This document shows, one piece after another, positions 27,990 to 52,423 of a stretch of 64,000 nt of DNA. The notes under the pieces are model-generated. The model had not been told where the DNA came from. It did not search any database and saw only the letters and a list, made by a program, of their open reading frames with translations. Position 1 is the stretch's first letter. The number at the start of each line of letters is the position of its first letter. The translations under genes and the position numbers were made by a program. This DNA is from Fischerella sp. JS2 (GTDB taxonomy: Bacteria > Cyanobacteriota > Cyanobacteriia > Cyanobacteriales > Nostocaceae). The stretch spans positions 2,294,001 through 2,358,000 of the forward strand of contig NZ_CP135918.1 in assembly GCF_032393985.1 (NCBI RefSeq), written 5' to 3'.

Positions 27990-28454
27990 TACCACCACCA
28001 TGTGCAGGTGTAACGCCTGGTGACTGAAACTGCTAAGTAAATTGTGCGTATAACTTTTAGACCTCCTGCAAAAGATAATTTTGCAAGAGTTGGGGTGCAT
28101 GTTAAAGGGGAAAGGATATTTCAATCCCTTTAACCCTTTCCCCTGACTTCTGCAAGAAGTGTATTATTTCTATGACTGTCATTTGACCAATGACCAAGCA
28201 GATTTTCGTTGAGCTAACACAACGCCACTTGTTGAGAAATTATATCAGGATTTGCAGGAAACTGGAATAGTATCCTTTGTTCCTGGAAAATTAGAAAGGA
28301 AATGGCTACATAATCTACATAATAATGTAATGTATATATAAATTTATCAAGAAAGATTATCAAATTAGTACTTTAAAAACTGTTAAATATTGAGAGTGAA
28401 AATTACAAAACAAATAGCCCAGAGAATGTAAAGTTTTCAAGTAACAGCAAGATA
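27990..28454. other. Divergent intergenic region, acylase and FecCD operon
   Basis: Divergent promoter region for the acylase (minus) and permease operon (plus). It is AT-rich near 28310-28430. No clear Fur-type palindrome, RNA gene or repeat was seen. Confidence 0.4.
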
Positions 28455-29486
28455 ATGACTAAAGCGACCATAGTGTCACCAAGAGGATTGAAAAAGCCAC
28501 AAATGCCAGCCTTACTTGGTCTGGTTCTGGGACTGTGTATCCTGCTAATTTGCTTGGCTTACAGTGTCACGCTAGGTGCAGCAGACATTCCTCTGGACAA
28601 GATTTTGGCATCTTTTATCGCCTTTGATGGTTCCTATGAACACTTAGTCATCCAGACAGTGAGATTACCGCGAGTGATCATCGCTATCCTTGTAGGTTCA
28701 GCCTTGGCAGTATCGGGAGGATTAATGCAAGGTTTGACACGCAACCCTTTAGCTGATCCAGGGATTTTAGGTATAGAGTCAGGAGCAGCACTGGCTGTAG
28801 TGGCAACAATTTTTGTTTTTGGCAGTTCCAGCTTGAGTGTTTTAACGATTGTGGCCTTTTTGGGTGCAGGAGTCACAGCAACGTTAGTCTACTTTCTGGG
28901 TTCTCTGGGACGGGGAGGAGCTACCCCACTGAATCTCACAGTCGCAGGTGCAGCACTCACGGCTCTAATTTCTTCTCTCACTACTTCGGTTCTGATCGTC
29001 AGTCAACGAACTTTACAAGAAATTAGATTTTGGTTAGCTGGTTCACTGGCTGGACGCGATACCAATATACTCTTGCAAGCACTACCTTTTGTCATGGTTG
29101 GATTAGTAGTTGCTTTTGCCCTTGGTAGGCAAATTACTACTATGAGTCTGGGTGAAGATGTAGCTAAAGGCTTAGGTCAAAAGACAGCTTGGGTCAAAAT
29201 GATTACTGCCATTAGCGTAGTTTTACTAGCAGGCAGTTCCGTTGCTCTTGCCGGGCCCATCGGTTTTGTTGGCTTAGTTGTTCCCCACATAGTGAAATTT
29301 TACATTAAAGCCGATTATCGTTGGATTTTACCTTATTGTGCCGTTTTAGGTGCGATTTTACTCTTGGTTGCAGACATTGCTGCGCGCCTGTTGCTCAAAC
29401 CCCAGGAGTTACCTGTAGGTGTAATGACAGCACTGATTGGCGCTCCCTTTTTTGTGTATCTGGCTAAGTCTAAGGTGAAAAAATGA
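28455..29486 (+). CDS. FecCD-family siderophore ABC transporter permease 1
   Basis: The 343-residue inner-membrane protein has about ten hydrophobic segments. Family markers are RLPRVIIAILVGSALAVSGG, GLTRNPLADPGILGIESGA, and near the end LAGPIGFVGLVVPHIVK, the cytoplasmic loop that meets the ATPase. It overlaps the second permease by four bases (ATGA), so translation is coupled. Together they form the channel that takes ferric siderophore from the lipoprotein at 20860. The ATPase gene lies beyond an IS element at 31464. Confidence 0.94.
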   Translation: MTKATIVSPRGLKKPQMPALLGLVLGLCILLICLAYSVTLGAADIPLDKILASFIAFDGSYEHLVIQTVRLPRVIIAILVGSALAVSGGLMQGLTRNPLADPGILGIESGAALAVVATIFVFGSSSLSVLTIVAFLGAGVTATLVYFLGSLGRGGATPLNLTVAGAALTALISSLTTSVLIVSQRTLQEIRFWLAGSLAGRDTNILLQALPFVMVGLVVAFALGRQITTMSLGEDVAKGLGQKTAWVKMITAISVVLLAGSSVALAGPIGFVGLVVPHIVKFYIKADYRWILPYCAVLGAILLLVADIAARLLLKPQELPVGVMTALIGAPFFVYLAKSKVKK

Positions 29487-30523
29487 AGGTTGATTGGCTA
29501 GTTATCCGTTCCCAGGCGATATCCTTCCGTATCGACCGACGCGTACCACTGGTGCTGCTATTTCTGGGATTAATCACTACAGTGGCGACGGTGATGAATT
29601 TGAGCAGGGGTGAATATCCAATCTCACCCTTGGATATCATCAAAACTTTATTGGGTATAGATACGGGAAATCCAGACTATGCCTTCGTGATTTATAACCT
29701 GCGTCTATTCCGTACTCTTGTGGCTTTGATGGTGGGAGTGGCACTGGCCATCTCTGGCACTATTTTCCAAGGTTTAACACGTAATCCTCTGGCAGATCCT
29801 GCTATTATTGGCGTCAATGCCGGAGCGAGTCTCGCGGCTGTTACAGTAATTGTACTGTTTGATGTAGCGCCAATTTATACTTTACCATTGGCAGCCTTGA
29901 TAGGTGCTTTATTGATGAGTGTTTTAATTTACTCGCTAGCTTGGAACAAAGGCAGTTCCCCGATTCTATTAATTTTGATGGGTATTGGCTTGTCTGCGAT
30001 CGCAAATGCTTTTATTAGCTTGTTGATTACCTTTGGGGATATTCATAACGTCAGTGATGCTTTGGTATGGTTAGCTGGCAGTGTCTACGGACGTACCTGG
30101 GAACAAGTATTTTCCTTCTTACCTTGGTTAATTGTTTTCCTTCCAATGGCGTTGATCCTAGCAAGGCATTTGAACGCTTTGAACTTGGGAGATGAGGTCG
30201 CCAAAGGTCTAGGTACTCGCGTGGAATGGGAACGTGGTTTACTAGTGCTAGTAGGTGCAGCCTTAGCAGGTGCAGCAGTTGCTACCGCTGGAAATATTGG
30301 TTTTGTTGGTTTAATCGCACCCCATATAGGAAGACAGTTGGTGGGTGCAAACCATCAAGGTTTGATTCCTACCTCAGCGCTGTTAGGAGGAATGATTGTT
30401 GTGATAGCAGACTTCCTGGGACGAACACTGTTTGCACCCATCGAAATACCTTGTGGGGTGGTGACTGCTGCGGTTGGCGCTCCTTATTTTCTGTATTTGT
30501 TAATTCGTAATCGTAAAAAATAA
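29483..30523 (+). CDS. FecCD-family siderophore ABC transporter permease 2
   Basis: The 346-residue partner of the preceding permease has the same markers: NLRLFRTLVALMVGVALAISG, GLTRNPLADPAIIGVNAGA and GNIGFVGLIAPHIGR. About ten transmembrane segments are predicted by eye. It begins inside the stop of the first permease gene. The IS1-family copy is inserted 57 bases after its stop, so transcription towards the ATPase may be weakened or may now come from the IS or a new promoter. Confidence 0.94.
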   Translation: MKVDWLVIRSQAISFRIDRRVPLVLLFLGLITTVATVMNLSRGEYPISPLDIIKTLLGIDTGNPDYAFVIYNLRLFRTLVALMVGVALAISGTIFQGLTRNPLADPAIIGVNAGASLAAVTVIVLFDVAPIYTLPLAALIGALLMSVLIYSLAWNKGSSPILLILMGIGLSAIANAFISLLITFGDIHNVSDALVWLAGSVYGRTWEQVFSFLPWLIVFLPMALILARHLNALNLGDEVAKGLGTRVEWERGLLVLVGAALAGAAVATAGNIGFVGLIAPHIGRQLVGANHQGLIPTSALLGGMIVVIADFLGRTLFAPIEIPCGVVTAAVGAPYFLYLLIRNRKK

Positions 30524-30572
30524 GGGACTAAGGAGAAATTAATTCATAATTCATAATTCACGCCTGATGTGA

Positions 30573-30580
30573 ATTAAAAC
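30573..30580. repeat. Target-site duplication ATTAAAAC, left copy
   Basis: It is identical to 31337-31344 and flanks IS copy 2. It differs from the duplication at copy 1, showing independent insertions. Confidence 0.8.
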
Positions 30581-30620
30581 GGCGTTGCATAATAGCGGTA
30601 TGAATTGAGGTCAATTAATC

Positions 30621-30980
30621 ATGGAATGTCCACGCTGTGGATCTTGTCATAACCGTAAGAATGGAAAGAAAAGAGGTAAACAGAATCACATTTGCTGTGA
30701 TTGTGGTCGTCAATTCATTGATGTCTATAAACCACCCAGGGGCTACTCGGATGAAATCAAACAAGAATGCCTAAAAATGTACGTCAATGGTATGGGATTT
30801 CGTGGAATTGAAAGGGTGAAAAACGTTCATCATACTACCATTATTCATTGGGTTAAACGAGTGGGTACACAATTGGCGGATACACCAAATTCAAAGGAAA
30901 TTCCGCAGGTGGGAGAACTAGATGAATTAGAAACATTTATTGGTTCAAAAAAAATAAAATCTGGTTGTGGACGGCGGTAA
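30621..30980 (+). CDS. IS1-family transposase DNA-binding part (InsA-like), copy 2
   Basis: 119 residues identical to the product of 11901-12260: Cys-rich N-terminus (CPRCGSCHNRKNGKK) and HTH (GFRGIERVKNVHHTTI). It starts 40 bases inside the element. The run of eight A at 30947-30954 is the slip site for making the fused transposase. Confidence 0.9.
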   Translation: MECPRCGSCHNRKNGKKRGKQNHICCDCGRQFIDVYKPPRGYSDEIKQECLKMYVNGMGFRGIERVKNVHHTTIIHWVKRVGTQLADTPNSKEIPQVGELDELETFIGSKKIKSGCGRR

Positions 30981-31312
30981 ATCACTTTACTCAAGGTATT
31001 CTTGCTTGGGTTTTAGGTGATCGTAGTTCGACTACTTTCCAACAGTTATGGAACATTGTCCAGTGTTGGCAGAGTTATTTTTACGTCACAGATGGATACC
31101 CTGTTTACCCTTGTTTTGTTCCTGATGGTGACCAAATTGTGAGTAAGACCTACATGACACGAGTCGAAAATGAAAACACAAGGCTTAGACATTATTTGGC
31201 TCGTCTTCATCGTAAAACTTTATGTTATTCCAAAACCGAGGAAATGCTGAGATACTCTGTTCGATTGTTATTGCACTACCTCAAATATCGTTCTGTTCCC
31301 TTACCTGCCTAA
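30965..31312 (+). CDS. IS1-family transposase catalytic part (InsB-like), copy 2
   Basis: 115 residues identical to those of 11569-11916. Reading the A8 run with a -1 slip joins the two ORFs as ...GSKKNKIWLWTAVNHF..., which is the normal IS1 sequence across this junction. The element is therefore probably still active. Confidence 0.9.
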   Translation: MWTAVNHFTQGILAWVLGDRSSTTFQQLWNIVQCWQSYFYVTDGYPVYPCFVPDGDQIVSKTYMTRVENENTRLRHYLARLHRKTLCYSKTEEMLRYSVRLLLHYLKYRSVPLPA

Positions 31313-31336
31313 AACATACCTTTATTCAGCAACGCC

Positions 31337-31344
31337 ATTAAAAC
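31337..31344. repeat. Target-site duplication ATTAAAAC, right copy
   Basis: It matches 30573-30580 exactly. Confidence 0.8.
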
Positions 31345-31370
31345 TATGGCAACAATCCTGTTTTTAAAAT

Positions 31371-31438
31371 CGAACACCGATGAACACAGATGAACACGGA
31401 TAACTTATCTGTGTTTATCGGTGTGCATCTGTGTTCGC
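31371..31438. repeat. Long hairpin built from heptamer-type repeats
   Basis: GAACACCGATGAACACAG continues into GATGAACACGGATAA and is followed by its inverted form (TTATCTGTGTTTATCGG, then CATCTGTGTTCG). The transcript would fold into a long stem just before the ATPase gene. The unit is the same family as 17206-17370. Confidence 0.65.
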
Positions 31439-31463
31439 TGATCAAATCAATTCATAATTCATA

Positions 31464-32288
31464 ATGGTTTCACTTATGAAAGGACTATCAACCAAAAGCC
31501 TGTCTTTAGCTTACGATGGTGTGCCGATTATCCGTGATTTGAATTTGGTAATTCCAAGTGGACAAATTACTGCTTTAGTTGGTGCGAATGGTTGTGGTAA
31601 ATCAACTTTGTTAAGAGGTTTAGCCAGACTCCTCAAACCCCGTGGCGGCACAGTATATCTTGATGGAGAGTCTGTTTTTAAGCTTTCCACAAAGGAAGTA
31701 GCGCAGCAGTTAGGTATTTTACCCCAAGGGCCAGTTGCACCAGAAGGGTTAACAGTAAGAAATTTGGTAGCACAAGGGCGTTATCCTTATCAAAGTTGGT
31801 TGCAGCAGTGGTCAGCAAAAGATGAAAAGATTGTACAACAGGCGCTAGAGATTACAAATTTACTAGATTTGGCAGATCGCGAACTGGACACTTTGTCTGG
31901 TGGACAAAGACAACGAGCTTGGATTGCGATGGCATTAGCCCAAGATACAGATATTTTACTTTTAGATGAACCGACTACTTTTCTAGATTTGGCGCACCAA
32001 ATAGAAGTATTGGATTTGTTATATGAGTTGCACCAAACTCAAGGACGGACTATTGTTATGGTGCTGCACGATTTAAATCATGCGTGTCGTTATGCTGATT
32101 ATTTGGTTGCTGTCAAAGATGGTCGGATTTTTACGGCTGGGGAACCAAAACTGGTAATGACTGAGGAGATGATATTAGAAGTTTTTGGGTTAGAGTGTCG
32201 TGTTGTTAATGATCCAGTGGTGGGAACACCGATGTGTGTGCCGATAGGACGTAAGGGAGCAAGGAAATTACAATCAAAATCTTCTTGA
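31464..32288 (+). CDS. Siderophore ABC transporter ATP-binding protein (FecE/FhuC type)
   Basis: The 274-residue ATPase has Walker [10 protein letters not shown], signature [17 protein letters not shown], Walker [13 protein letters not shown] and the switch His in VLHDLNHA. This is the pattern of ATPases paired with FecCD permeases, so it energises import through 28455-30523. The start could also be the Met at 31476. It is now separated from the permeases by 940 bases containing an IS and a long hairpin; before the insertion the gap would have been about 180 bases. Confidence 0.93.
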
Positions 32289-32338: not shown

Positions 32339-35227
32339 CTAATCTATCTTTGCATAGCTAATTCTCTCAAATTCCCTGAGATTTAAAATATCACTGCTAT
32401 CACTTTCCTGGCTACGACGGGCATAATGCCTGTTAAGACAAGCTTGATTATAGTCATAAATTTGCACAGCTCCCACAGATAAATTATCTTCTTCTGGTCT
32501 AGGATTTTCTTTAAAAGCATTTTCTAAATCTGGAAGCAGATTCGGAATTTTCTCTTCAATATCTGTCGGTAATTCTGCCAGATAAAGAAATGCTACAGCC
32601 CGTAATAATGCTGGCATTTTCCGGTCTATGGCACTATTCAATAATATTTTGGAAAGTTCTATATCTTTACCACCATTTTCTTCTTCATAATAATTCTTTA
32701 CTTCCTTAAAGAAATTTTTTAGGTATTTGACTGTGTCACTTGTGTAGACTTTTACTTTTTGTTCTGCCAACTCTTGGGCGACTTGATTTACCAATTTGAT
32801 AGGTGTGAGAGTCAAAGTTCTCTTATTCAATGCTAATTCCAATTCCCTGATTTTTTTTAATGAGGAAATTGAGCTATCTATGATATCGCTAAATAAGTCT
32901 CTCAGTTTACTTATTAATTTTGCGTCTAAATGTTCTTCTTCTTTAACTTTATCTAGAACATCACAGGCTCGACCAACGACACCTACCTCATACTTATCTT
33001 TATTTTCCAAAATATTGATTAGTGTCGAGATTGTTTGCATACTCAAATGATGCTTAGGCAATTTCTGAGAGGAATGTAATTGCAGAAGTAAAAATGCAAA
33101 AATTGTTCTCCGTTTATATACCTCATATTGTTTCCATTCTTCATTTTTATTTTTTAAGCTTGCACTCTCTCTTTCTAAAGTTTCTAGTAATTGCAACAGC
33201 TTACGTTCAGTTTCTTCACCGGAACACTCTCCAATGGCATACTGCAATGCGTAGGCTCGCCAGGTTTTATCATGGCTAAATTCCCCTTGGGGAGATTCCG
33301 TCAATTCCTTACATACATCTTTCAGTAATTTTCGATTCAGTTTTTCTTCTCCACTTTCTCCACCATCATCTTCAAATGGTGTCTGAAAAAATTGAAAAAT
33401 TCGGAAAAAGAATTTGGCTGTTTCATCGTAATCGGTTCTCATGAATATATCCATTAAAAACCGATAAAATTCTTTACGCGTTTCCCAGTCTAAAACCCCC
33501 GGTCTTCTAAGCAAATCTTTGATAATTAAACTCATAGATTCGGCGGTATCAAACATTCTATCCAGTTCATCTGGTGAATATTCTTCGACAAAATCTTTTA
33601 AGTCTTGATTTACTAATTCTGGTTGACGATGGATAATCGAAGTAATCAGAATTGCTCTTTTCCAAACTTCTACTCTTTTCCAAACTTTATAGTTACTACC
33701 ATTAAAAAGCCAGTATGCTAAGGAAGAACGGTTACGCAGTTCTGTTAATCTGTGAGCAGATAAATGAGTGAGATGGGGTTCATTAATAGTAAACTTATCC
33801 TTGCCATCTAATCGCATAATAAAAGGTAAGCGTTCTAACATTAAACTCGTAATACGTTTAGCACGCATTTCAGAAGTTTCACCTTCGGGTTCTACAGGCA
33901 TATTGAGTACCCATGCCTCAATTTCTGCTGTGTCGATTGGTCGCTCTTTTTCAATTATTTCTAAAGCCCATTTACTCAATTTTGACCAAATTTGATTTTT
34001 AGAAATATCAGTACCTGGGAAATAAACGGAATTTTGTAAAGATTGTCCGATACTTCTAGCCTCGGGCCATCTAATTATGTTGAGTTCTAGGCTTTGATGC
34101 TCAAGGTGGACATCAGTTGTACCCGGCATGTATCCTTCTAGAATTAGTAAGGCAGCAAGTACAAGATGTAAGGGATTACGTAAAAAATCTCCCTTTTTTA
34201 ATTCTTGATGATGAAAATTTTCAATAAATCGAATACATTGCTTGATATTAGCTTCCAAAGATTTTTGTTCTGTTTCTGTGCCTTTTTTGTCTGCTTCTGT
34301 TCCTTGTGCTAGGGAAAGATATAATCTTTGAACTAGCTCTTTTTGTTCATCACGAGTAAGAGGACTAAGTTGACAAACTATTTTATTTTTAATTTGCTTG
34401 AGTAATGAATCTTTGGGATTACGATATTTGTCTGGACGACTTGTGAGGATAAAGGCGCACTGTTCGTATTGGAGTATGAGAGTTTCTATATCTCTGAGTG
34501 CTTGGTCGCGACGTACTTCATTAGGAATTTCATCTAATGCATCTAACAAAAAAAGTACTTCACCTCTTTTACAAGCTTCTAGAAACAGTTCATCATTTAA
34601 GCCTGTACCAAAGTAGTTATGGTAATCTGCTATGGCCGCTAAAACTGGATGTCCGAAGCGCTTAACTGTTTCTTTGGCTGGTGGTTCGTTATATTGAATC
34701 AGTGGAAATATAATTGGGATTTTTGTGCCAAGTTGATATGTCTCGTCACGTTCTGCATTAAATCCTTGAGCATCAACAATCCATCTAATTAAAAAGGTTT
34801 TGCCACTACCAGCAACTCCTAATAAAACGATAGGGCCTTTTTGGGCTAACTGTGGTAAGTCTGCTAGCTTGACATTATCTATACTTAATGAGTTAGTATC
34901 ACTCAAAATTTTTACTCCCCGATCCACAAAAGCGTCTTTTGCTGATATGGATGTGGTGGCTATATGAGGCAATAATAACCAAGGAGATATACTTCCGCGA
35001 CTAATTCTTTGGAGTTGTAGAAAGAGCTTAGCCTCTTTTGTGTAAATTAATGCTTTTCCTCTTTCTGATAAATTCAAAAGCTTTTGTTGAGCAACCTCTG
35101 GAATTCTCTTTGTTTCTCCTTTTTCCCATCGACTTACTGTTTTCATTGCAACACCAAGTTGATCGGCGAGTTGCTGTTGGGTGAGTCCCAGTTGCTCGCG
35201 AATTTTAAGAATGTCACTACCTTTCAT
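32339..35227 (-). CDS. XRE-type helix-turn-helix plus NACHT NTPase (STAND protein)
   Basis: The 962-residue protein has three parts. Residues ~4-57 are an XRE HTH (IREQLGLTQQQLADQLGVAMKTVSRWEKGE). Residues ~130-400 are a NACHT NTPase with Walker A GVAGSGKT (137-144), Walker B LFLLDALDE (225-233) and sensor-like ILTSRPDKY. The remainder is Leu- and Glu-rich alpha-helical sequence, probably a repeat-type sensor. STAND NTPases with NACHT modules include bacterial antiphage NLR-like proteins and developmental regulators. Here the effector position is taken by a DNA-binding domain, so it may switch transcription on sensing a ligand. It is a single gene facing away from its neighbours, with an abrupt change of theme from the siderophore block. 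Confidence 0.85.
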   Translation of the reverse strand: MKGSDILKIREQLGLTQQQLADQLGVAMKTVSRWEKGETKRIPEVAQQKLLNLSERGKALIYTKEAKLFLQLQRISRGSISPWLLLPHIATTSISAKDAFVDRGVKILSDTNSLSIDNVKLADLPQLAQKGPIVLLGVAGSGKTFLIRWIVDAQGFNAERDETYQLGTKIPIIFPLIQYNEPPAKETVKRFGHPVLAAIADYHNYFGTGLNDELFLEACKRGEVLFLLDALDEIPNEVRRDQALRDIETLILQYEQCAFILTSRPDKYRNPKDSLLKQIKNKIVCQLSPLTRDEQKELVQRLYLSLAQGTEADKKGTETEQKSLEANIKQCIRFIENFHHQELKKGDFLRNPLHLVLAALLILEGYMPGTTDVHLEHQSLELNIIRWPEARSIGQSLQNSVYFPGTDISKNQIWSKLSKWALEIIEKERPIDTAEIEAWVLNMPVEPEGETSEMRAKRITSLMLERLPFIMRLDGKDKFTINEPHLTHLSAHRLTELRNRSSLAYWLFNGSNYKVWKRVEVWKRAILITSIIHRQPELVNQDLKDFVEEYSPDELDRMFDTAESMSLIIKDLLRRPGVLDWETRKEFYRFLMDIFMRTDYDETAKFFFRIFQFFQTPFEDDGGESGEEKLNRKLLKDVCKELTESPQGEFSHDKTWRAYALQYAIGECSGEETERKLLQLLETLERESASLKNKNEEWKQYEVYKRRTIFAFLLLQLHSSQKLPKHHLSMQTISTLINILENKDKYEVGVVGRACDVLDKVKEEEHLDAKLISKLRDLFSDIIDSSISSLKKIRELELALNKRTLTLTPIKLVNQVAQELAEQKVKVYTSDTVKYLKNFFKEVKNYYEEENGGKDIELSKILLNSAIDRKMPALLRAVAFLYLAELPTDIEEKIPNLLPDLENAFKENPRPEEDNLSVGAVQIYDYNQACLNRHYARRSQESDSSDILNLREFERISYAKID

Positions 35228-35331: not shown

Positions 35332-36432
35332 TTAGTAACTTATGCATGGACAAGCGATCGCACTGCTCCGGACCATTTCTTGTTTATGATTGGTGGTATC
35401 CCCGAAATTACCTCCAATTAGGAATTCGCCAGTATGACTAAGAACTTGGGAATTGGGACAGATAATATCTAGGTGATATCTTGTACAGGTTGTTAACCCA
35501 AATCCCCAATGAATAACTCCATACTCAGCGCCGTACACTTCGTTCATTGCATTGTTACCTGGCCACAATTTCAGTGCGGTGTTAATCCCAAATCCCACCT
35601 CCCAAATAAATTGATAGTGAGGATCTATAGTAAATAGATGTTCTAGTGCTGATTTGGCTGCTTCTACTGATGGATGAGTAGCCTGTAATTTGGCGATCGC
35701 ACCATTCTCAACTGTGGCGATTACAGCATGTTCTTTCAGGGTTGATAGCTGTTCGTAAATGTAAGCTTGTTCTGTTCGCCTAGAAAAGTCTTTACCAGAA
35801 TGCAGAATTGGATAACCCCAAAATGCCAACTCCCCATTAATTTCTAGTCTGCATTCAGGACTAAATTTGCCATGAGTTAATGGTAAAACACTCAGTTCCC
35901 CGGATGGAACTATTTGCTGTTGACCCCAATCTAAAAATCCACCTTGCTCAAACCACTCGTATTCATCAGCCAAGTGGAAAAATTTAGCTGAAGTTTGATA
36001 GCGTTCATCGATAATATGCAAATACTCTGCTTGCTCAACAGTATCAAAAAAATGGTTGGCAAATGCCCCTTGAGCTTCTGAGTCAGTTGCTTCTATGACA
36101 CTGAGAAAATGTGCGATCGCTGCCCAAGAAGTAGGGGTAGAATTAACTGCCATAATTGCCAGTTTACGCAAACCAAGTTGCTCTGACTCTACTGCACAAA
36201 TGTAGTGTTCTGGACAAATAACTAAAATATGGGCAGGTTCTTGCGTTTGCTGAATGACCTCTGTTAAACTACCGCCAGCGTAAGTGAGAATTTGATAAGA
36301 TTTATAAGAATTCTCCTGTTCAATAGCAAAGGCATTAACCAAATCAACTTCAGTTACAAGGTAAAAGTTGCATTCTTGAGTAGAACCAAACTGAAGATAC
36401 TTGTGTGGGCGAATCGCTATTTTCTCTTCCAT
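35332..36432 (-). CDS. M29 aminopeptidase/NicX-like metalloprotein
   Basis: The 366-residue protein has no signal peptide. Its second half has the layout of M29 leucyl aminopeptidases and the related dioxygenase NicX: GQQQIVPSGELSVLP, WEVGFGINTALKLWPG, NEVYGAEYGVIHWGFG and the metal-binding style H-x-D in RYHLDII. The N-terminal half is less conserved. The reaction cannot be assigned: peptidase, ring-cleaving oxygenase or other metal enzyme. It stands alone between the NACHT gene and a 900-base gap. Confidence 0.5.
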   Translation of the reverse strand: MEEKIAIRPHKYLQFGSTQECNFYLVTEVDLVNAFAIEQENSYKSYQILTYAGGSLTEVIQQTQEPAHILVICPEHYICAVESEQLGLRKLAIMAVNSTPTSWAAIAHFLSVIEATDSEAQGAFANHFFDTVEQAEYLHIIDERYQTSAKFFHLADEYEWFEQGGFLDWGQQQIVPSGELSVLPLTHGKFSPECRLEINGELAFWGYPILHSGKDFSRRTEQAYIYEQLSTLKEHAVIATVENGAIAKLQATHPSVEAAKSALEHLFTIDPHYQFIWEVGFGINTALKLWPGNNAMNEVYGAEYGVIHWGFGLTTCTRYHLDIICPNSQVLSHTGEFLIGGNFGDTTNHKQEMVRSSAIACPCISY

Positions 36433-37340: not shown

Positions 37341-38015
37341 TTAACGCAACTTCTCTTGTCTCCATGCATTACCGTCAAAGCGCAAAGCGTATGACCAAAT
37401 TGTTGAAGTGAAAATAGAATGTGTAACCAGTATTACTGATGTGCCTGATGCGATAATATTTTCGATTATTCCTATTACCTTATGAGCGGTTTCAGGATCT
37501 AAATTGGCAGTGATTTCATCTAAAAGAAGAAGTTGAGGAGAATGTACTAAAGCACGGGCAAGTGCAACTCTTTGTCTTTGCCCTCCTGATAATTGGTTTG
37601 GGTAATCATACGCTTTGTTGTCAATTCCAAGTTGAGCTAACTGGTCTTTGGCAACTTCATCTGCAAGTCTTCTATTTTTACCATTACGAAGCCACAGAGG
37701 CAATGAAACATTTTCCAGTACAGTCATGTGAGACCAGAGATATAACTGCTGGAATACCATGCTGATTTCCAATCGGTTAGTACTACGATCAACATATCCA
37801 GGCTTAGAAACAACCTTTTCATCGAAAATGATTCGTCCTCTGTCAATTTCCTCAAGCAAAGCAATGCAACGTAAAAGTGTTGTTTTTCCACAGCCACTCT
37901 TTCCCTGAATGATTAAACTCTCTCCTCTTTCAAGGGAGAAGTTGACCTCATCTAAAATGACAGTGTGATTAAATCTCTTTTCTAAATTCTCAATACTCAA
38001 AAATAAGCTGAACAT
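37341..38015 (-). CDS. Polar amino acid-type ABC transporter ATP-binding protein
   Basis: The 224-residue ATPase has Walker A GKSGCGKTT, signature [15 protein letters not shown] and Walker B LLLLDEITANLDPETA (Ile where Pro-Thr is usual: DEIT for DEPT), plus the switch His in VTHS. Length and order match GlnQ/HisP partners. It is the last gene of a five-gene minus-strand operon, 15 bases after the permease. It would drive uptake of the small solute bound by the lipoprotein at 38712. Confidence 0.92.
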   Translation of the reverse strand: MFSLFLSIENLEKRFNHTVILDEVNFSLERGESLIIQGKSGCGKTTLLRCIALLEEIDRGRIIFDEKVVSKPGYVDRSTNRLEISMVFQQLYLWSHMTVLENVSLPLWLRNGKNRRLADEVAKDQLAQLGIDNKAYDYPNQLSGGQRQRVALARALVHSPQLLLLDEITANLDPETAHKVIGIIENIIASGTSVILVTHSIFTSTIWSYALRFDGNAWRQEKLR

Positions 38016-38030
38016 TATACTAACTAGAAT

Positions 38031-38705
38031 TTATATTTTTTCTATTCCACCTAATTCTTTTATCCGTTGTACTCTTCTCAAAAAAATATTTAAAGGAATA
38101 ATAGTAACAATAAACATCATTGCTACTACAGAATAAATTTCTAGAGGGCGATAAGTTTGCGCAATAATTGAATTTGCAGTGTGTAAGATTTCAGGAACAG
38201 CAATAACTGATGCCAAAGTAGAGAATTTATAAGTTGTGATGTACTGTCCCATCAGAGGTAACCAAGACCTGCGGAGAACTTGAGGAATCAGAATATAGCG
38301 AATTGCTTGAAAACGTGTCATTCCTGTACAGTAAGCTACTTCAATCTCTCCAGCAGGAACTGAATTTATCCCTCCCCGAATGATTTCCGCCACGAAAGCT
38401 GAGAGGCTTAATCCCAATCCTATAACAGCACAAGTTTGTCCCTCTATGACTAAGCCAGGAATTATTGATGGTAGGCTGTAATACAGCCATACAAGCAGCA
38501 CAAGAACTGGTAGTGCAAGAAAAAGCTCAATAAATATTTTGGCTATCCATGCGATGAAAGGAACAGATGTAATGGAGAGAACCCCTACTAATATGCCTAT
38601 TAAAGTTCCCAATGCAATGCTGGCAATACTAAGCCAAATTGTTGTTAGTAATGCAAAGCAAAGGGGTAATAAATTATTCCAGACTATAGAGAGGTTCCAA
38701 TCCAT
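38031..38705 (-). CDS. Polar amino acid-type ABC transporter permease
   Basis: The 224-residue membrane protein has about five transmembrane segments and the His/Glu/Gln/Arg permease pattern (LALPVLVLLVWLYYSLP, AFVAEIIRGGINSVPAGEIEVAYCTGMTRFQAIRYILIPQVLRR, the EAA loop meeting the ATPase). It lies six bases after the substrate-binding gene and probably acts as a homodimer. Confidence 0.93.
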   Translation of the reverse strand: MDWNLSIVWNNLLPLCFALLTTIWLSIASIALGTLIGILVGVLSITSVPFIAWIAKIFIELFLALPVLVLLVWLYYSLPSIIPGLVIEGQTCAVIGLGLSLSAFVAEIIRGGINSVPAGEIEVAYCTGMTRFQAIRYILIPQVLRRSWLPLMGQYITTYKFSTLASVIAVPEILHTANSIIAQTYRPLEIYSVVAMMFIVTIIPLNIFLRRVQRIKELGGIEKI

Positions 38706-38711
38706 TGTGTG

Positions 38712-39584
38712 TTACTCTTTGGTAAATTCCCAAATCTTCTTGAGATGGAGCCAGTTTGCACCTGCTTTTTGTTCCCATTCACGAAGACGACCTTGATAGT
38801 CAAAAGCTTCCAAACTGCTGTTTAAAAAGTTTAAAAGCTGATCTTCTCCTCGACGGACAGCCCATGAAACTGGAGTTAGGTTATAGGGAGATGCAGCGAA
38901 TAAATCTTTGACTTGCTTGGAATTTGCCTGTGCAAACTGGGATGTTGCATAAGCATCACCAAGAGCAATATCAGCACGTCCAGCAATCACTGCTTGAAAT
39001 GCAAGGGATTGATCCCCTCCAGAAAATCTGGTAATTTTCGCTTTCTTAAAATTTGCCTTTGCATACTCATCACCAGCTTCACCTTGAGTAACTGCAACAG
39101 TAACCCCAGGTTGGTCGATGCTTTCCAGGCTTGTGAAGCGAGTTTCATTAATACGGGCGATCGCACTGTTTCCTGCATAGAAAAGGGGCTTTGTAAAGTA
39201 AACTGATAATGCTCTGGGAACAGTAACAAAAGTCGGTACTATCGAAACATCAAAACGACGAGAGTCCAGCCCTACAGCAAAGTTTGCCCAGTCTGTTTCC
39301 ACAAATTCGATCTTCCAATTATTGAGGCGGGCAATTTCATTAATTGTGTCAACATGATGGCCAGCTAACTCACCAGTTGATTGATTCTTTGTGATTGCTG
39401 GTGGAAAAACAAGATAACCGACCTTGAGTTTACTGTTAGCAATAATTTGTCCTAGTGTTCCTGCATTGTTTGCAACATTTTGTGATGCAGAGTTTTTTGT
39501 ACACGAAGACAGATTAAATAAGAGTACTAGCATCAGCATAGTACTGAGCAAAAGTAACTGAATCTTGCCTCTTTTAGTGCCCAT
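38712..39584 (-). CDS. Family 3 substrate-binding lipoprotein of an amino acid-type ABC transporter
   Basis: The 290-residue protein has a signal peptide ending in the lipobox LSSC and is thus anchored on the periplasmic face. The mature part has the family 3 fold: LKVGYLVFPPAI, HHVDTINEIARLNNWKIEFVETDWANFAVGLDSRRFDVSIVPTFVT, then the second lobe LESIDQPGVTVAVTQGEAGDEYAK and AGRADIALGDAYAT. The usual Arg/Asp pair that clamps amino-acid groups is not obvious (GDAYATSQF), so the ligand may be unusual. The cytosolic regulator at 40323 has a domain of the same general fold. Confidence 0.9.
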   Translation of the reverse strand: MGTKRGKIQLLLLSTMLMLVLLFNLSSCTKNSASQNVANNAGTLGQIIANSKLKVGYLVFPPAITKNQSTGELAGHHVDTINEIARLNNWKIEFVETDWANFAVGLDSRRFDVSIVPTFVTVPRALSVYFTKPLFYAGNSAIARINETRFTSLESIDQPGVTVAVTQGEAGDEYAKANFKKAKITRFSGGDQSLAFQAVIAGRADIALGDAYATSQFAQANSKQVKDLFAASPYNLTPVSWAVRRGEDQLLNFLNSSLEAFDYQGRLREWEQKAGANWLHLKKIWEFTKE

Positions 39585-39617
39585 TTCACTCCTTCACAGA
39601 AATACTAGAGAATTTTT

Positions 39618-40316
39618 CTAAACAGGGCAAGTTAGGCATTGCTTTTCCAAGCATTCCATTAGTCCGTTCCACATTTTCCTTTGAGTTTGGACAACAAAAT
39701 CTTTTCCTTTAGCAAATGCTTCTTTACCTCCCTCTTGCTCCTGCAACCAAGCCACAACATCTTCAAACATTTCAAAATGTTCTGCGGCGGCGTGAACCCG
39801 AAAGAAACGAAGACCATACTCTGGTACACCAGCTTCTTGCATAACCCGCAAGAAGAGTTGATAGTCGGGTTGATCAAAAATCTCGTAAACTGCAATAGCA
39901 CAAAGAGCTTCTTCTAAAGATGCTGTTCTACAAAAATTTTCCCAGTTAGCATTGAACTGTTGTGCAAATAGAGGCTCTTTGAGTAATTCTTCGCTTTTTG
40001 TTCCTACAGATGATAGGAAATCTCGATATAGTTGATTATGACTTGGACCATTTTTTCCACCCAACTCCTCTATTAAATTTTTTGCTAGTCCTGCCCATAA
40101 GAACTCATTTGTCCCACACCGTTCACCTACAACAAAGTTAAGCCGAGGAAAGTCATATCGGATGAAGTAAAATACTTCAGCAAACTGTTTCAATCCCTCA
40201 GCATTAGCTGTTGCTTTACAAAGCCGAAGCTCTACATCTAGCTGATCAAGAATTGCTTCCTCTTCGGCGATAATTACTTTGACTAATTCAGTTAATTTGT
40301 TCGTTGTTTCAATCAT
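39618..40316 (-). CDS. Heme-oxygenase-fold iron-containing enzyme (CADD/HDO-like)
   Basis: The 232-residue all-helical protein resembles the TenA/PqqC/CADD superfamily of heme-oxygenase-like di-metal oxidases. Candidate ligands are E83/E84 (NLIEELGG), H93 (GPSHNQLYRDFL), E145 (AVYEIFD) and the last helix FFRVHAAAEHFEMFED (H175, E179, H180, E182). The usual spacing H-x3-D-x2-H would put His at 182; here 182 is Glu and His is at 180, so the metal site may differ. Known members oxidise amino acids or fatty acids, or make p-aminobenzoate. Flanked by a regulator (six bases) and an amino-acid-type importer (33 bases), it probably acts on the imported solute. Confidence 0.75.
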   Translation of the reverse strand: MIETTNKLTELVKVIIAEEEAILDQLDVELRLCKATANAEGLKQFAEVFYFIRYDFPRLNFVVGERCGTNEFLWAGLAKNLIEELGGKNGPSHNQLYRDFLSSVGTKSEELLKEPLFAQQFNANWENFCRTASLEEALCAIAVYEIFDQPDYQLFLRVMQEAGVPEYGLRFFRVHAAAEHFEMFEDVVAWLQEQEGGKEAFAKGKDFVVQTQRKMWNGLMECLEKQCLTCPV

Positions 40317-40322
40317 TCTTCG

Positions 40323-41372
40323 TCATTTCTCTGCTACGCTTTTGATAATTCGAGGAGTCAGCTTAATAGCAGAGTTTACTGCTGTTATTAACTTCTCTTC
40401 GTCAGGGTGAAAGGCGAAAGCTGAATAGGTTTCCAAATCTATGGTTTCAACATTCATTATCTTGAGCTTGTTTTCACTAGCCAGAAAATGACCAGTGACA
40501 CTGTCAACCAAAAATACAGGAATTATATCCTTATCTTGCTTTGCAGTTGCTAGTAAATAGCTAATTGCTTGTTTGTCATCTTCAAATGACTTTTTCTCAT
40601 AGGAATCTAAGACAGCAACCCCCCACTCAGCAAGTTCTCCTTCGAGGTAAAGGAGTTGGATAGATTTAGAAGGCAAGTCTTCAAGGCAAGTTGCACTCCC
40701 AGCATGATCAGGAGAAATGAGCGCAGCAAGCCTAAAACTATCTTCGCTACACCGCTCGGAGAAACGAAAACTAAAAAAACGCCCTGGAAGAACCAGTATA
40801 AATGGTGCGATGCCGTCAACCTGGCGCTCTTGAATTGCAAGAGGCATTTGATCATAGTCTAGATATTTCCAATTGGTATGAATTCCCAACAACCGCCCAA
40901 TACGCTCTGCATATTCAATGACTAAACCAGTAGGTTTAGCTCCATCTTTGTTTGGAGGTTCCGACCATTTGGGAACACTAGTATATCCAAGTGTCCAGGC
41001 TTCCTTTTTTGCGATTTCGTACCAACTAGAGTCCGCTCCTTTGCCTCTAACAAAAGCTCTGTAGCCAGCAGCTTCCAAAAGCTCATTCAATATCCCATCA
41101 ATTTCATCAGAAGCTGGAAAGGGGTCGTGGGGTAGCTGTTGGCGAATTTCATCAAGCCGACGCGCTAAAATCACAGCAATACGGCTGACGATCGCTTTTT
41201 TCGGAACGTTATCGCCTCGGGCCCATCGGTAGAATTGAGTTTCCCCAACTTTTATTTCTGCCATCAACTGCTGCTTTGTCCAGCCCGCCTCAACAAGATA
41301 TTTTTCAACAACCTTTACAAATATAGATTGAGACGAAGTGTCCTCGGAGCGACTGCGTTTTGAACGTGCCAC
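40323..41372 (-). CDS. XRE regulator fused to a periplasmic-binding-protein-like sensor
   Basis: The 349-residue protein is cytosolic (no signal). Residues ~18-75 form a helix-turn-helix (GWTKQQLMAEIKVGETQFYRWARGDNVPKKA). Residues ~115-345 look like the family 3 solute-binding fold: SWYEIAKKEAWTLGYTSVP, TGLVIEYAERIGRLLGIHTNWKYLDYDQMPLAIQERQVDGIAPF, then DLPSKSIQLLYLEGELAEWGVAVLD. It would sense in the cytosol the ligand that the lipoprotein at 38712 binds outside. It is the first gene of the operon, so autoregulation is likely; direct repeats TTTAAGACAGT lie 100-140 bases before its start. Confidence 0.8.
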   Translation of the reverse strand: MARSKRSRSEDTSSQSIFVKVVEKYLVEAGWTKQQLMAEIKVGETQFYRWARGDNVPKKAIVSRIAVILARRLDEIRQQLPHDPFPASDEIDGILNELLEAAGYRAFVRGKGADSSWYEIAKKEAWTLGYTSVPKWSEPPNKDGAKPTGLVIEYAERIGRLLGIHTNWKYLDYDQMPLAIQERQVDGIAPFILVLPGRFFSFRFSERCSEDSFRLAALISPDHAGSATCLEDLPSKSIQLLYLEGELAEWGVAVLDSYEKKSFEDDKQAISYLLATAKQDKDIIPVFLVDSVTGHFLASENKLKIMNVETIDLETYSAFAFHPDEEKLITAVNSAIKLTPRIIKSVAEK

Positions 41373-46991: not shown

Positions 46992-47798
46992 TTACGACTG
47001 ACTATCAAAAATCAACTCCTCGCCTATTGCCACACTACCACTACTAATTACCTGCGCTAAAACACCAGTCTGGGTATGCTGAAATTGCTCTTGTAAAAGA
47101 GACAGTAATCTAATATCTCGTTCTCCAGTTTCAGGATGAACATCTATATTTAAGCAGCGATTTATTCTGGCTGTCACAACAATTCGGGCTGTTCCCAGTT
47201 GTATTTCTTGCCCCACCCAGTCAAATTCTGCCCAAGCAGGGACACCTTCTACAACAAGATTCGGGCGGAAGCGCCGTACGTCTATTGGTTGTCCGGCTAA
47301 TTGACTTAAATGGTTAATGGTTGCTTGACTGACAAGGGAAATATGTACCGCTTCCCGGTCGGGATAGCGAGTTTTGTCAAATTCTCCAACTAGCTGTAGA
47401 GGTGCGCGCTTAGGGTGTCTGGCTGCTTGACTAGGGTAAATTCCTGCTAGGTAGCCAGTAAAAAAAGCTGATATTAAATCCCTTCCTTTGCCAGTTGTAG
47501 TATTAGCAACTAATAACTCTACACCTTTGCGCTTGACTGTGAAAATGCTAGTTTCTGGATTATAGAAACAATTCAAAGCTGCAAGTCCTGGCCAGTCATT
47601 TTGCATGATGAAGTTTTGCTTCTTCATCCAAGGTACTATTGTTGAGTTTCTATCTATAGCGTCTTGCTTATACATCAAAGCAAAAGCGCGATCACCTGGA
47701 ATACCATGTCCAACTTTGAGACAGACGCGATCGCACTTGTAACTACTTAATCCTTTGACAGGATAAATCAATAATTGCTGAATGGATATTTTAGTCAT
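46992..47798 (-). CDS. MOSC domain-containing protein
   Basis: 268 residues from the Met at 47798. The frame stays open upstream but reads through a repetitive hairpin (GATCCCCGATCCC-type), so the later start is preferred. The N-terminal MOSC beta-barrel opens ISIQQLLIYPVKGLSSYKCDRV; the MOSC core has FRPNLVVEGVPAWAEFDWVGQEIQLG and the candidate Cys in ARINRCLNIDVHPETGERD. MOSC proteins carry sulfur or molybdenum cofactor for oxidoreductases such as YcbX/mARC-type enzymes. Confidence 0.88.
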   Translation of the reverse strand: MTKISIQQLLIYPVKGLSSYKCDRVCLKVGHGIPGDRAFALMYKQDAIDRNSTIVPWMKKQNFIMQNDWPGLAALNCFYNPETSIFTVKRKGVELLVANTTTGKGRDLISAFFTGYLAGIYPSQAARHPKRAPLQLVGEFDKTRYPDREAVHISLVSQATINHLSQLAGQPIDVRRFRPNLVVEGVPAWAEFDWVGQEIQLGTARIVVTARINRCLNIDVHPETGERDIRLLSLLQEQFQHTQTGVLAQVISSGSVAIGEELIFDSQS

Positions 47799-47799
47799 T

Positions 47800-47922
47800 G
47801 GAGATCGGGGATCAGGGATCAGGGACTGGGGATAGGGAGGACAAGGAAGAATTTCTCCCTTGTCTTCCCCTTCTCCCTTGTCTTTATTCTTATACCCGAT
47901 CCCCGATCCCCGATCCCTATTC
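47800..47922. repeat. Inverted repeat made of GGGGATCAGGGATC units
   Basis: GATCGGGGATCAGGGATCAG (47803 on) faces ACCCGATCCCCGATCCCCGA (47894 on) across a purine/pyrimidine-rich loop. It lies between the MOSC and FTR1 genes and overlaps the very end of the FTR1 frame. It is a dispersed repeat, possibly attenuating read-through. Confidence 0.6.
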
Positions 47923-48885
47923 CTTAGCAGAACTAATCGGTTTTTGTCCTGCTGAAATATTTTTGCGATCTTGAGCAGAACCGCCCATGATACTACGGAA
48001 ATATAAACCACCAACAGTCAATAAAAATACAACATACCCTACTGCCTGCACCACATAAAGATGTTCTCTGTATCCAAATAAGGCCTTAAATACAATACCG
48101 GGGAATTTTTCTTCAGGTAATATATTGGCTGTATTCCAAACCATAGGCCCTAGTATACAAGAATGAATTTTGGTAAACCTTTCGTAGTAAAAACAAAGGC
48201 TTTCAGAAGCACGATTACTGAGGGCATAATTAGCGGCAGCTTCGTCAAAATTATGTAATGCAGAAATTACTAATCCACCAACAATTAATACCAATAAAAC
48301 ACCCATGACCTGGAAAAATTGGCGGATATTGATTTTAACTCCCCATTTAAATAAAAGCACACCAATTGCTGCTGCAACTGCAATCCCGCCAATAGCCCCA
48401 AGGGCAGGAATTAATCCCTGTTGAAAATTAGCTGCGATGAAGAGAACTGTTTCAAACCCTTCGCGGACAACGGCAATCAAAATTAAACTAAAAACACCCC
48501 AGCCAGCATTAGTATTATCTTTTAAAGCATCTGTCACCGCTCCTTCTACTTGAGCTTTCATAAATTTAGCTTGTTTGGTCATCCAGATCAGCATCCAGCT
48601 GAGCATGAAAATGGCCAGTACACTAAATACAGCTTCCATCAATGGTTCAACTACAGATGTGTACTGGGGATTAATTGCTCCCAGTACTTGTATTACCCAA
48701 CTAAACAGCACACCAATCAGCGCACTTAAGGCAATACCAACACCGACGCCAGCATATACCCAAGGATTAAGCCGGGATTGTTTAGCTTTTTTTAATAAAG
48801 CCAAGACAATACCAACTACTAAGGCTGCTTCTACTCCTTCTCGGAGTGTAATTACAAAAGTAGGTAAAGCAGTACTAAAGTTCAT
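47917..48885 (-). CDS. FTR1-family high-affinity iron permease
   Basis: The 322-residue protein has seven or so transmembrane helices and two REG-E iron-path motifs: LREGVEAALVVG near residue 14 and VVREGFETVLFIA in the middle. This is the EfeU/FTR1 inner-membrane permease, which takes iron oxidised or presented by a periplasmic partner. The EfeO-like lipoprotein (49622) and multicopper oxidase (51083) on the same strand are natural partners, and the ferritin-like gene at 48980 would store the iron. Confidence 0.92.
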   Translation of the reverse strand: MNFSTALPTFVITLREGVEAALVVGIVLALLKKAKQSRLNPWVYAGVGVGIALSALIGVLFSWVIQVLGAINPQYTSVVEPLMEAVFSVLAIFMLSWMLIWMTKQAKFMKAQVEGAVTDALKDNTNAGWGVFSLILIAVVREGFETVLFIAANFQQGLIPALGAIGGIAVAAAIGVLLFKWGVKINIRQFFQVMGVLLVLIVGGLVISALHNFDEAAANYALSNRASESLCFYYERFTKIHSCILGPMVWNTANILPEEKFPGIVFKALFGYREHLYVVQAVGYVVFLLTVGGLYFRSIMGGSAQDRKNISAGQKPISSAKE

Positions 48886-48979
48886 CAGTTGTCCTTTGTC
48901 AATTTGTTATTTGTCATTAGTCATTAGTCATTAGTTATTAGCTATTGACTAATGACTAATGACCAATGACTTGTGACTA
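48886..48979. repeat. Inverted repeat of GTCATTAGTCATTAG units
   Basis: GTCATTAGTCATTAGTCATT is followed after a short loop by GACTAATGACTAATGACC. It forms a hairpin between the ferritin-like gene and FTR1; the unit is common in cyanobacterial intergenic DNA. Confidence 0.6.
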
Positions 48980-49414
48980 CTAACTAAAATCGCGTAACAT
49001 TTTCTTCAGTTCAAGATTATGCATCTCTTCCTGACCGATCATAGTTCGGGCAAATTCTTCAAGATAAATACTGGCATCGCTGACAACACCAAGCAAAGTT
49101 TTATACAAATCTAGTGCTTTTTTTTCGTGTGCCAAGCTTTCTTCCAAAATATGTTTAACAGAATGCTTGTAACTTTCTTCAATTGGTGCAATTTTCAGGC
49201 TAGGATGTCCATCTAAACCTGTAAGAATTTCTCCTACTTGTTGAGCGTGAAGTAAAGATTCGCTTGCCTGGGCCTTAAAAAAAGTTACAATCGGAATGCG
49301 ATTAGGGCCAGTTACCATCAAAGAGTAGTGAGTGTAACGCACAACTCCTGCCAATTCAAACTCCATAATGCTGTTGAGCAGGTCAATTGTCTTTTTTTGG
49401 TCAAGTTCTTGCAT
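48980..49414 (-). CDS. Ferritin-like (bacterioferritin/Dps-related) protein
   Basis: The 144-residue four-helix protein has carboxylate/His ligands at the expected places: EFELAGVVRYTHYS (helix 1), ASESLLHAQQVGE (helix 2), EESLAHEKKALDLY (helix 3) and IGQEEMHNLELKKML (helix 4). It probably oxidises and stores ferrous iron in the cytoplasm. It is placed directly upstream of FTR1 on the same strand. Confidence 0.88.
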   Translation of the reverse strand: MQELDQKKTIDLLNSIMEFELAGVVRYTHYSLMVTGPNRIPIVTFFKAQASESLLHAQQVGEILTGLDGHPSLKIAPIEESYKHSVKHILEESLAHEKKALDLYKTLLGVVSDASIYLEEFARTMIGQEEMHNLELKKMLRDFS

Positions 49415-49621
49415 TAGTTGTTAGTTTTTGCTATTAGCCAGAAGTTTTCAGTGATGAGCTATAAGTTAGAAAGTATCTAACTTTTGATTCATTTCTCACT
49501 AAATTTTAAACTCCTACTTTGGAACAAAAAGTCAAGGGTAATCTAACCCTATGTATGATTGTGTTTATAGTCAGGGCTTTAGTCCTTGTTGAGCGAAGAC
49601 AGCGCTGACTACAAGCTTAAA

Positions 49622-50665
49622 TTATCGCTGGGCTTGAGTTTTGGAAGTGTCAATCACTTTTTGAGATTCTAATTCTATCGCTTTGACTTGTTTGGTGACT
49701 TCCTCAGGAGTATTGACTGGCTTGGCTGGTGGAATCACTGTTGGCCAAGTTTTTTTCAGTTGCGCCATACTCGCCCGAATTGCTTTGTCTGCTTCCGGAT
49801 AATTTTTAGCCATCTGGCTGGATATACCTTGATACAACTCGTCAGCGTAGAGTACAAAGCCACGGGAATCCTGGTATTCAATGGCTGCGGTGATTTTACC
49901 GTCGGCGACAGCTGCACCATATTCTGAGTTAGCAGCATCCAACAGGCCGTTAATTACCTGGAGGACAAATGATGGTTGGGTACGCTGGCTTTCTGGTAAG
50001 GCTGCGATCGCTTCATCCACCGACTGCATAGAAGTAGTAAAGTTAGTCTTGACTTTGCCGTCTTTGGGGTTAGATTTCACCAAATCTTGCAAACTTACCA
50101 AAGTTGTCTTAAATTCTTTGACTTTGCGCTCATTTAATTGGTCTTCCACATCAACATAAATTTCTTCTACTGGATGACCAATATGAGGTTCTGCCTGTTT
50201 CGGTTGATTCTGGTCTAATAGTTCTTGCGCTACAATCAGATGTCCTTTCATCAATCCTAACTTGGTCATATAATCGACATCTTTGGCTTCCCCAGTCAAA
50301 ACCACTTCTTGAACAGTTACTTGATCCTTGATTTTGTCAAACTGTTCTTGGGTAATTACCTTCTTACTGACTAATTCCTCAGGACTAGCATAGGGACGAT
50401 TTGCCTGAATTTTATTCGATAATGCTGGTACACCTAGCTGCGCTTCAAATTTATCTAATTCAGACAAAATAGCTGTATTGATGTTAATTTGTTTTTTGCT
50501 ACCATGACCGCTATGGCTTACTGCCTCAGTTGTTTGTGCAACAGAGTTGGGACTACTAGCTGCGGGTGAATTTTCCGTGGTTGAAGTGCCACTATCATTA
50601 CAAGAACTCAAAGTCACAATCGCACAAGCAGCGACAGCCAAACACAAATAACGGAATTTTTTCAT
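49622..50665 (-). CDS. Periplasmic lipoprotein: helix-hairpin-helix plus EfeO/imelysin-like domain
   Basis: The 347-residue protein has a signal peptide with the lipobox LSSC. A low-complexity linker ends in HSGHGSKK. Residues ~60-120 form a ComEA-type helix-hairpin-helix (ININTAILSELDKFEAQLGVPALSNKIQANRPYASPEEL). The C-terminal helical domain (GLMKGHLIVAQELL, HIGHPVEEIYVDVEDQL) resembles the peptidase-M75/imelysin part of EfeO. It therefore probably binds iron in the periplasm for the FTR1 permease. The fusion with HhH, normally a DNA- or protein-binding motif, is unusual. Confidence 0.7.
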   Translation of the reverse strand: MKKFRYLCLAVAACAIVTLSSCNDSGTSTTENSPAASSPNSVAQTTEAVSHSGHGSKKQININTAILSELDKFEAQLGVPALSNKIQANRPYASPEELVSKKVITQEQFDKIKDQVTVQEVVLTGEAKDVDYMTKLGLMKGHLIVAQELLDQNQPKQAEPHIGHPVEEIYVDVEDQLNERKVKEFKTTLVSLQDLVKSNPKDGKVKTNFTTSMQSVDEAIAALPESQRTQPSFVLQVINGLLDAANSEYGAAVADGKITAAIEYQDSRGFVLYADELYQGISSQMAKNYPEADKAIRASMAQLKKTWPTVIPPAKPVNTPEEVTKQVKAIELESQKVIDTSKTQAQR

Positions 50666-52108: not shown

Positions 52109-52262
52109 GATACTATCACGAATCATTTGCAGCAAAAAATAAACTGCAAATTTTTTGCAATTACCTTCTATTAATATAGGAAATAAAAATTATTGTCAAT
52201 AATCTTTGAGTGGCTTTCAAATCGCAAGTATAGCGATTTTCAACTGGATACAATACACTTTT

Positions 52263-52325: not shown

Positions 52326-52423
52326 TGTAGTAAATGTTTAAGTTTTTATTTATTTATAAATGCATCTGCCATAGGTAAGATTGTATAAAACGCAATCTGT
52401 TTTTTATTTTTTAATTTAAGAGA

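Follow-up and report, generated by a model that had tools for sequence, protein, structure and literature searches.

In the cytosol, LysR-type regulators carry a PBP2-fold effector domain behind a DNA-binding head. Polar-amino-acid ATP-binding cassette (ABC) importers of the GlnP/GlnQ type work with family-3 solute-binding proteins (SBPs) outside the membrane. The heme-oxygenase-fold oxidases of the HDO superfamily, such as BesC, CADD, UndA, SznF and AetD, form another well-described group; characterised members have mostly fatty acids or amino acids as substrates, and metal-independent members of the fold exist (available portion of PMC13108848). Some 85% of the HDO groups analysed carry the ligand motif E-H-X-H-[DE]-H, while FlcD, which has V and R at the last two ligand places, binds one iron; E181, H191 and H274 are named as its iron ligands, and E244 is noted in addition (accessible part of PMC11363339). 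The spacing of ligands along the third helix (alpha3) can vary, as illustrated by H172/D176/H181 of MboA (PMC13185094, in the section available). Here, these systems are compared with a five-gene operon of Fischerella sp. JS2, found at positions 37341-41372 of a 64,000-nucleotide stretch of its genome (NZ_CP135918.1, positions 2,294,001 to 2,358,000; hereafter the window). The operon joins a regulator (REG) with an SBP-like domain, an HDO and an ABC importer, and it probably serves as an accessory operon for the uptake and oxidation of an amino acid.

The operon and its conservation

The five open reading frames lie on the minus strand with intergenic gaps of 6, 33, 6 and 15 bases, and are transcribed in the following order:

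40323..41372, minus strand: REG, 349 amino acids (aa), with a probable N-terminal XRE/Cro-type helix-turn-helix (HTH) and a C-terminal SBP_bac_3-like domain at about 114-339; R198 and D290 are invariant
39618..40316, minus strand: HDO, 232 aa, heme-oxygenase-like (PF14518), with E84, H93, E145 and H175 kept and a non-canonical alpha3, H175-x4-H180-F
38712..39584, minus strand: SBP, an amino-acid-type (family 3) solute-binding lipoprotein with a signal sequence, an invariant Cys28, and R124 and D210 where amino-acid SBPs have their Arg and Asp contacts
38031..38705, minus strand: PERM, a polar-amino-acid-type ABC permease, GlnP/EhuC-like, HEQRo_perm_3TM
37341..38015, minus strand: ATP, an ABC ATPase, GlnQ-like

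The HDO scores 62.4 bits against PF14518 (cut-off 28.9), and two orthologues also exceed the cut-off (54.5 bits in G445, 56.3 in G432). Among the importer subunits, the SBP reaches 64.9 bits with PF00497, the permease 46.5 with PF00528 and 75 with HEQRo_perm_3TM (cut-off 42.2), and the ATPase 117.9 with PF00005; the best model for the latter among the 25 best of 205 is GlnQ, below its cut-off. A family-3 SBP, a HEQRo-type permease and a GlnQ-like ATPase thus occur together. Their ligand cannot be named from the importer, because none of the equivalog models listed (for the ATPase, the best 25 of 205) exceeds its cut-off.

The operon is rare and confined to certain filamentous cyanobacteria among those covered. 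REG matches were found in 2/388 genomes of the class, 6/388 of the order, 2/61 of the family of G123 and 2/11 of that of G445, in panels that overlap. The six carriers are the window genome (G000; 7.02 Mb, single contig), G123 (taken as the Oscillatoriales metagenome-assembled genome contig RDYN01000035.1), G521, G445, G432 and G558 (taken as Zarconia navalis LEGE 11467). HDO and SBP follow REG in all of them, and permease and ATPase in five, which keep the full five-gene order; the arrangement is therefore not due to chance. Adjoining genes overlap or are separated by no more than 33 bases. Provided that the listed start codons are right, the HDO frame begins 20-38 bases before REG ends in G521, G445 and Zarconia; in G432 REG and HDO form a single open frame of 597 codons without internal stop. 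The patchy occurrence of the operon in distant genera, together with its absence from G676, which belongs to the same genus as a carrier, suggests horizontal transfer. A contig scan with two short, strict peptide patterns taken from two sequences returned two loci and did not recover the orthologues of G445, G432 and G521, so that it does not bound the distribution. A plasmid location and a role in anti-phage defence were considered and set aside: neither REG nor HDO matches any of 72,556 plasmid records (E <= 1e-3), nor does either have a PADLOC match at E <= 0.01. About 2.5 kb downstream of the G445 operon, a second, partial relative of the ATPase is found (L029 14168-14647; 57% identical over 162 residues).

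The regulator and the candidate metal site of the HDO

The C-terminal domain of REG barely passes the SBP_bac_3 cut-off in the window protein (27.5 against 26.4 bits) and does so more clearly in G445 (32.1) and G432 (31.8). In the PDB, a six-row profile of REG finds amino-acid SBPs and proteins derived from SBPs, with E values down to 2.1e-7, and HHalign aligns REG with the SBP of its own operon over 216 columns (p 0.0012). Taken together, these comparisons give good support to a relationship with SBPs. At the other end of the protein, HTH_31 scores 18.1 bits in the window REG, under its cut-off of 27, and HTH families exceed theirs in two orthologues (HTH_26, 24.2 against 22, in G445; HTH_3, 25.2 against 23, in G432). 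Structure models of REG and HDO were built from three sequences (the window, L022 and L023), and only their HTH helices were used. The REG model (AlphaFold2, three-row alignment) has four helices at about 17-78, with ten-residue means of the predicted local distance difference test (pLDDT) of up to 83; no other region has ten-residue means of 70 or more.

The two binding proteins appear to reside on opposite sides of the membrane, as judged by their signal sequences. Over the first 60 residues, the 19-residue Kyte-Doolittle maximum is at most 0.35 in all six REGs and at least 2.05 in all six SBPs, whose invariant Cys28 sits at a lipobox-like site. R198 and D290 are invariant in the six REGs. 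In the six-row profile alignment, R198 shares a column with the 'TPER' Arg of AncCDT, and a weak phmmer match (E 0.0023) sets D290 against the 'LID' Asp of 4ohn; HHalign also pairs D290 with D210 of the SBP. R124 and D210 of the SBP occupy the same positions as the Arg and Asp contacts to the amino acid, positions which we take to hold the alpha-carboxylate and the alpha-amino group in LAO/GlnBP-type proteins. Since it has no signal peptide and retains R198 and D290, REG most likely senses an amino acid in the cytosol. As a candidate operator, AAGACA/TGTCTT was discarded: it is present in each of the five upstream regions under comparison (G521, nearly identical to G123, was excluded), but equal hexamer sharing arose in 14% of the 200 first-order Markov shuffles made.

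Much of this had been anticipated in a preliminary description of the window, which proposed the five-gene operon with the same spacing, an importer of amino-acid type, and a cytosolic regulator whose SBP-like domain would mirror the exported lipoprotein. The frames, their gaps and the polar-amino-acid type of all three importer subunits bear it out, and the domain scores and N-termini point the same way for the regulator. It had seen two ways in which its proposal could fail, a lack of synteny elsewhere and a REG C-terminal domain unrelated to SBPs. Neither came true, REG, HDO and SBP occurring together in 6/6 REG-carrying genomes of the order, once with REG and HDO fused.

As regards the enzyme, E84, H93, E145 and H175 are kept in 15/15 aligned HDO homologues and align with residues of the FlcD chain (E 0.048, weak) that correspond to E181, H191, E244 and H274 in the available portion of PMC11363339, with an inferred numbering offset of 23. 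In their third helix, the 15 proteins divide cleanly into five with H-x3-D-x2-H (those of G122, G189, G177, G010 and G197) and ten with H-x4-H-[FY], namely the six operon HDOs and those of G477, G077, G322 and G331. In the latter group the residue at +4 from H175 is E, N, N, E, H and H in the operon proteins and K, Q, E and D in the others; Glu is found at +7 in eight of the ten, the exceptions being Gly in G521 and Ala in G445 (E/E/E/G/A/E over the operon HDOs). The usual dimetal alpha3 motif, H-x3-[DE]-...-H, is thus absent, with a carboxylate at +4 in 2/6 operon orthologues and His at +7 in 0/6, and so is the FlcD-type E-H-X-H-V-R, with V at +4 or R at +7 in 0/6.

By these motifs, the operon enzyme falls into a subgroup of HDOs whose third helix departs from the canonical pattern. 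Its site may be mononuclear as in FlcD or rearranged, and a rearranged dimetal site is conceivable because the alpha3 spacing varies in MboA. The preliminary description had called the enzyme di-metal. As worded, that part does not stand, a carboxylate at +4 and a His at +7 not being kept across the six orthologues, whereas its reading holds as regards the synteny and the SBP-related regulator. The oxidation of a specific small molecule, which it also proposed, would be expected if the enzyme behaves like its family.

Related HDOs are not confined to the operon. A protein search found them in 10/388 class genomes at E <= 1e-5, only those of G000 and G123 being close, and a six-row HDO profile matched 7/195 order genomes, of which five carry the operon. 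Near the eight other HDOs of the class, ABC ATPases, present in three of the stretches, are the sole operon-type relatives found. The operon is therefore one of the settings in which a wider group of HDOs is found. In two genomes (L014 3196-8374 and L015 8866-13884), an H-x4-H-[FY]-E HDO adjoins what by eye resembles a Rieske-type oxygenase-like protein and a permease-histidine-kinase-like fusion. Another H-x4-H-F-E HDO (L053 4599-9650, gene at 5683-6399) has neighbours named by eye as a SET-domain-like protein and a PhyH-like dioxygenase, between transposase-like frames. HDO domains with the canonical motif and, by eye, a cupin-like C-terminal extension are encoded in L006 and L008 (385 and 429 aa).

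Possible function and a neighbouring cluster

The reading that we favour is that the lipoprotein SBP, the permease and the ATPase import one specific alpha-amino acid, probably a non-protein one. Inside the cell, REG would bind this compound or its oxidation product and, when ligand-bound, would change transcription of its own operon. The HDO, as an iron-dependent heme-oxygenase-fold enzyme, would oxidise the compound handled by REG and SBP, presumably for its assimilation, its detoxification or its conversion into a product. The proposal builds on the gene content, spacing, order and fusion, on the Arg and Asp kept in both binding domains and on the E-H-E-H residues of the HDO; amino-acid chemistry is suggested by the importer type, by the usual substrates of characterised HDOs and by a gene cluster that accompanies the operon in three of the six carriers.

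Several observations weigh against it. No permease is found in the 499 bases left on the Zarconia contig after the SBP. The HHalign probability for REG and SBP is low (19.7), R198 falls one column off R124, and a contact role for R198 and D290 draws on alignments and on recall of LAO/GlnBP-type proteins. The REG model (mean pLDDT 42.6, nearly all below 50 outside the HTH) is too poor for a check of the pocket, and among hexamers within 250 bases upstream of REG no shared operator is significant. The cofactor of the HDO, whose model is also of low confidence (mean pLDDT 43.5), is uncertain; 8/10 class genomes with an HDO match have no REG match, and tblastn found no relative of REG, SBP or permease around these eight HDOs (E <= 1e-4).

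The cluster in question lies divergently upstream of REG in G521, G445 and G432. Its four genes were defined in G445 and assigned in the two others by tblastn match to the G445 genes:

Serine-acetyltransferase-like protein (SAT): cysE, 141.4 bits, below the cut-off of 210.65
JAMM-type protein: Prok-JAB, 52.6 bits, cut-off 25
Cysteine-synthase-like enzyme: cysKM, 283.4 bits, below the cut-off of 344.15
AlaX-like editing protein: AlaXM, 136 bits, below the cut-off of 300

This cluster gives rise to an alternative that deserves consideration, although we doubt it: the HDO would tailor an amino acid made by the cluster, the importer would recapture the product and REG would control both arms. Cluster-type AlaX is found in 5/388 order genomes (E <= 1e-20), three of which are REG carriers, a co-occurrence with hypergeometric values of 2.0e-5 by genome and 1.6e-3 by genus, kinship being ignored. 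Of the two others, G467 has a partial AlaX frame only, while G661, with no REG match, carries SAT, AlaX and cysteine-synthase-like genes (the last 33% identical to its G445 counterpart) beside a major facilitator superfamily (MFS) transporter, as expected of a stand-alone producer and exporter unit. Against a tailoring role, tblastn did not find the cluster in the stretches around REG in G123, Zarconia or the window, and two of the three genomes that have it belong to one genus. The window genome has no AlaX match at E <= 1e-20 and no JAMM match at E <= 0.01 (a search made without positive control), and its best cysteine synthases are 38-39% identical; as a producer by way of the cluster, it was rejected for the genes searched, SAT having been looked for in the window only. 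In the tailoring alternative, genomes that lack the cluster, the window genome among them, would be scavengers of the compound or keepers of a remnant, which we likewise consider rather doubtful. The content of the cluster suggests, without proving it, that the operon compound is a beta-substituted alanine, with AlaX guarding against mischarging. Beta-N-methylamino-L-alanine (BMAA) was considered as the ligand in view of the cysteine-synthase-like hypotheses in the accessible part of PMC9414260, and set aside, nothing in the analysis singling it out. In a bolder and, as a whole, somewhat less likely version, the operon would be a signalling-catalysis module in which the XRE-SBP regulator senses an unrecognised beta-substituted alanine and the HDO, covalently joined to the regulator in one genome, oxidises it at a rearranged or mononuclear iron site; the cluster genes would make the compound from O-acetylserine, AlaX would be carried by these producers as a tRNA-editing protein because the compound is mischarged onto tRNA, and genomes of the window type would be consumers.

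The two remaining alternatives both appear improbable. The HDO might be a metal-poor or metal-free protein of TenA/PqqC-like fold that processes or merely binds the imported compound, as the variable +4 and +7 residues of alpha3 and the metal-independent members of the fold (PMC13108848, in its available portion) would allow; the chances of this are slim, given that E84, H93, E145 and H175 are kept in every aligned homologue, at positions matching three FlcD iron ligands and E244 (PMC11363339, as far as available), and that TENA_THI-4 scores just 13.3 bits on the window HDO against 62.4 for PF14518. It is just as hard to credit an ordinary importer operon with HDO and REG as passengers, the binding domain of the latter being a degenerate dimerisation module that senses nothing. 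Such an origin would agree with the patchy occurrence and with the faster divergence of REG, whose orthologues are 44-56% identical to the window protein as against 68-78% for SBP. REG and HDO nevertheless accompany SBP in 6/6 carriers and are fused in G432, and the invariance of R198 and D290 is not that of a decayed pocket. Uptake and oxidation of an amino acid thus remain the function that we favour.

Surroundings and comparison with described systems

Elsewhere in the window, the stretches 14-24579 and 25884-32288 encode polyketide synthase and nonribosomal peptide synthetase proteins (KS, KR, C-A-T-TE), a P450, MATE and ABC exporters, a TonB-dependent receptor with an AMIN domain, a penicillin-amidase-like protein, two FecCD permeases and an ABC ATPase; they look like a siderophore or related natural-product cluster. 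A 962-aa HTH_3 and NACHT protein, a STAND-type NTPase with an XRE-like head, is encoded at 32339-35227 on the minus strand, and its PADLOC matches are very weak and mostly to the HTH. At 35332-36432, about 0.9 kb downstream of the operon and on the same minus strand, there is a 366-aa protein with no Pfam match above cut-off. A metal-handling stretch at 46992-54388 comprises MOSC, FTR1 iron permease, multicopper oxidase and cation-efflux genes.

Every part of the operon comes from a known family. Neither the combination with its XRE-SBP_bac_3 regulator nor the SAT, JAMM, cysteine-synthase-like and AlaX cluster was met among the papers listed by literature searches that left out most subscription journals. 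The importer has its SBP, permease and ATPase all of the polar-amino-acid type. With the HDO superfamily, the enzyme shares a PF14518 score well above cut-off and the E-H-E-H residues, and its best PDB sequence match is BesC (7twa); it differs in having H-x4-H-[FY] instead of a conserved carboxylate at +4 and His at +7, and in being tied to an importer and an SBP-type regulator. It resembles FlcD in the E181/H191/E244/H274 equivalents and in that the last two usual ligands are not conserved. FlcD, however, has V278 and R281 where the operon HDOs have E, N or H at +4 and E, G or A at +7, with an extra invariant His at +5; at 232 aa, the operon enzyme is also too short for the additional N-terminal domain of FlcD (comparisons drawn from the part of PMC11363339 available). 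The operon may lead to a subgroup of HDOs whose iron site is unusual. As SBP and REG offer two independent handles on the substrate, this orphan oxidase should be unusually easy to deorphanise, and the cysteine-synthase-like and AlaX link could help to find a cyanobacterial non-protein amino acid that is new to science.

The regulator shares a probable XRE head and a small-molecule domain with XRE-cupin and other XRE one-component regulators, from which it differs in that its ligand domain is that of an amino-acid SBP. Like LysR-type regulators, it appears to use a type-2 periplasmic-binding-protein-like effector domain in the cytosol; unlike them, it combines a probable XRE/Cro-type HTH with SBP_bac_3, and neither the LysR winged HTH nor the LysR substrate-binding domain is among its four Pfam families at E <= 1. 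If our reading is correct, a periplasmic-type amino-acid binding domain has been re-used as a cytosolic sensor for transcription, which adjoins, and in one genome is fused to, the enzyme that handles the same molecule.

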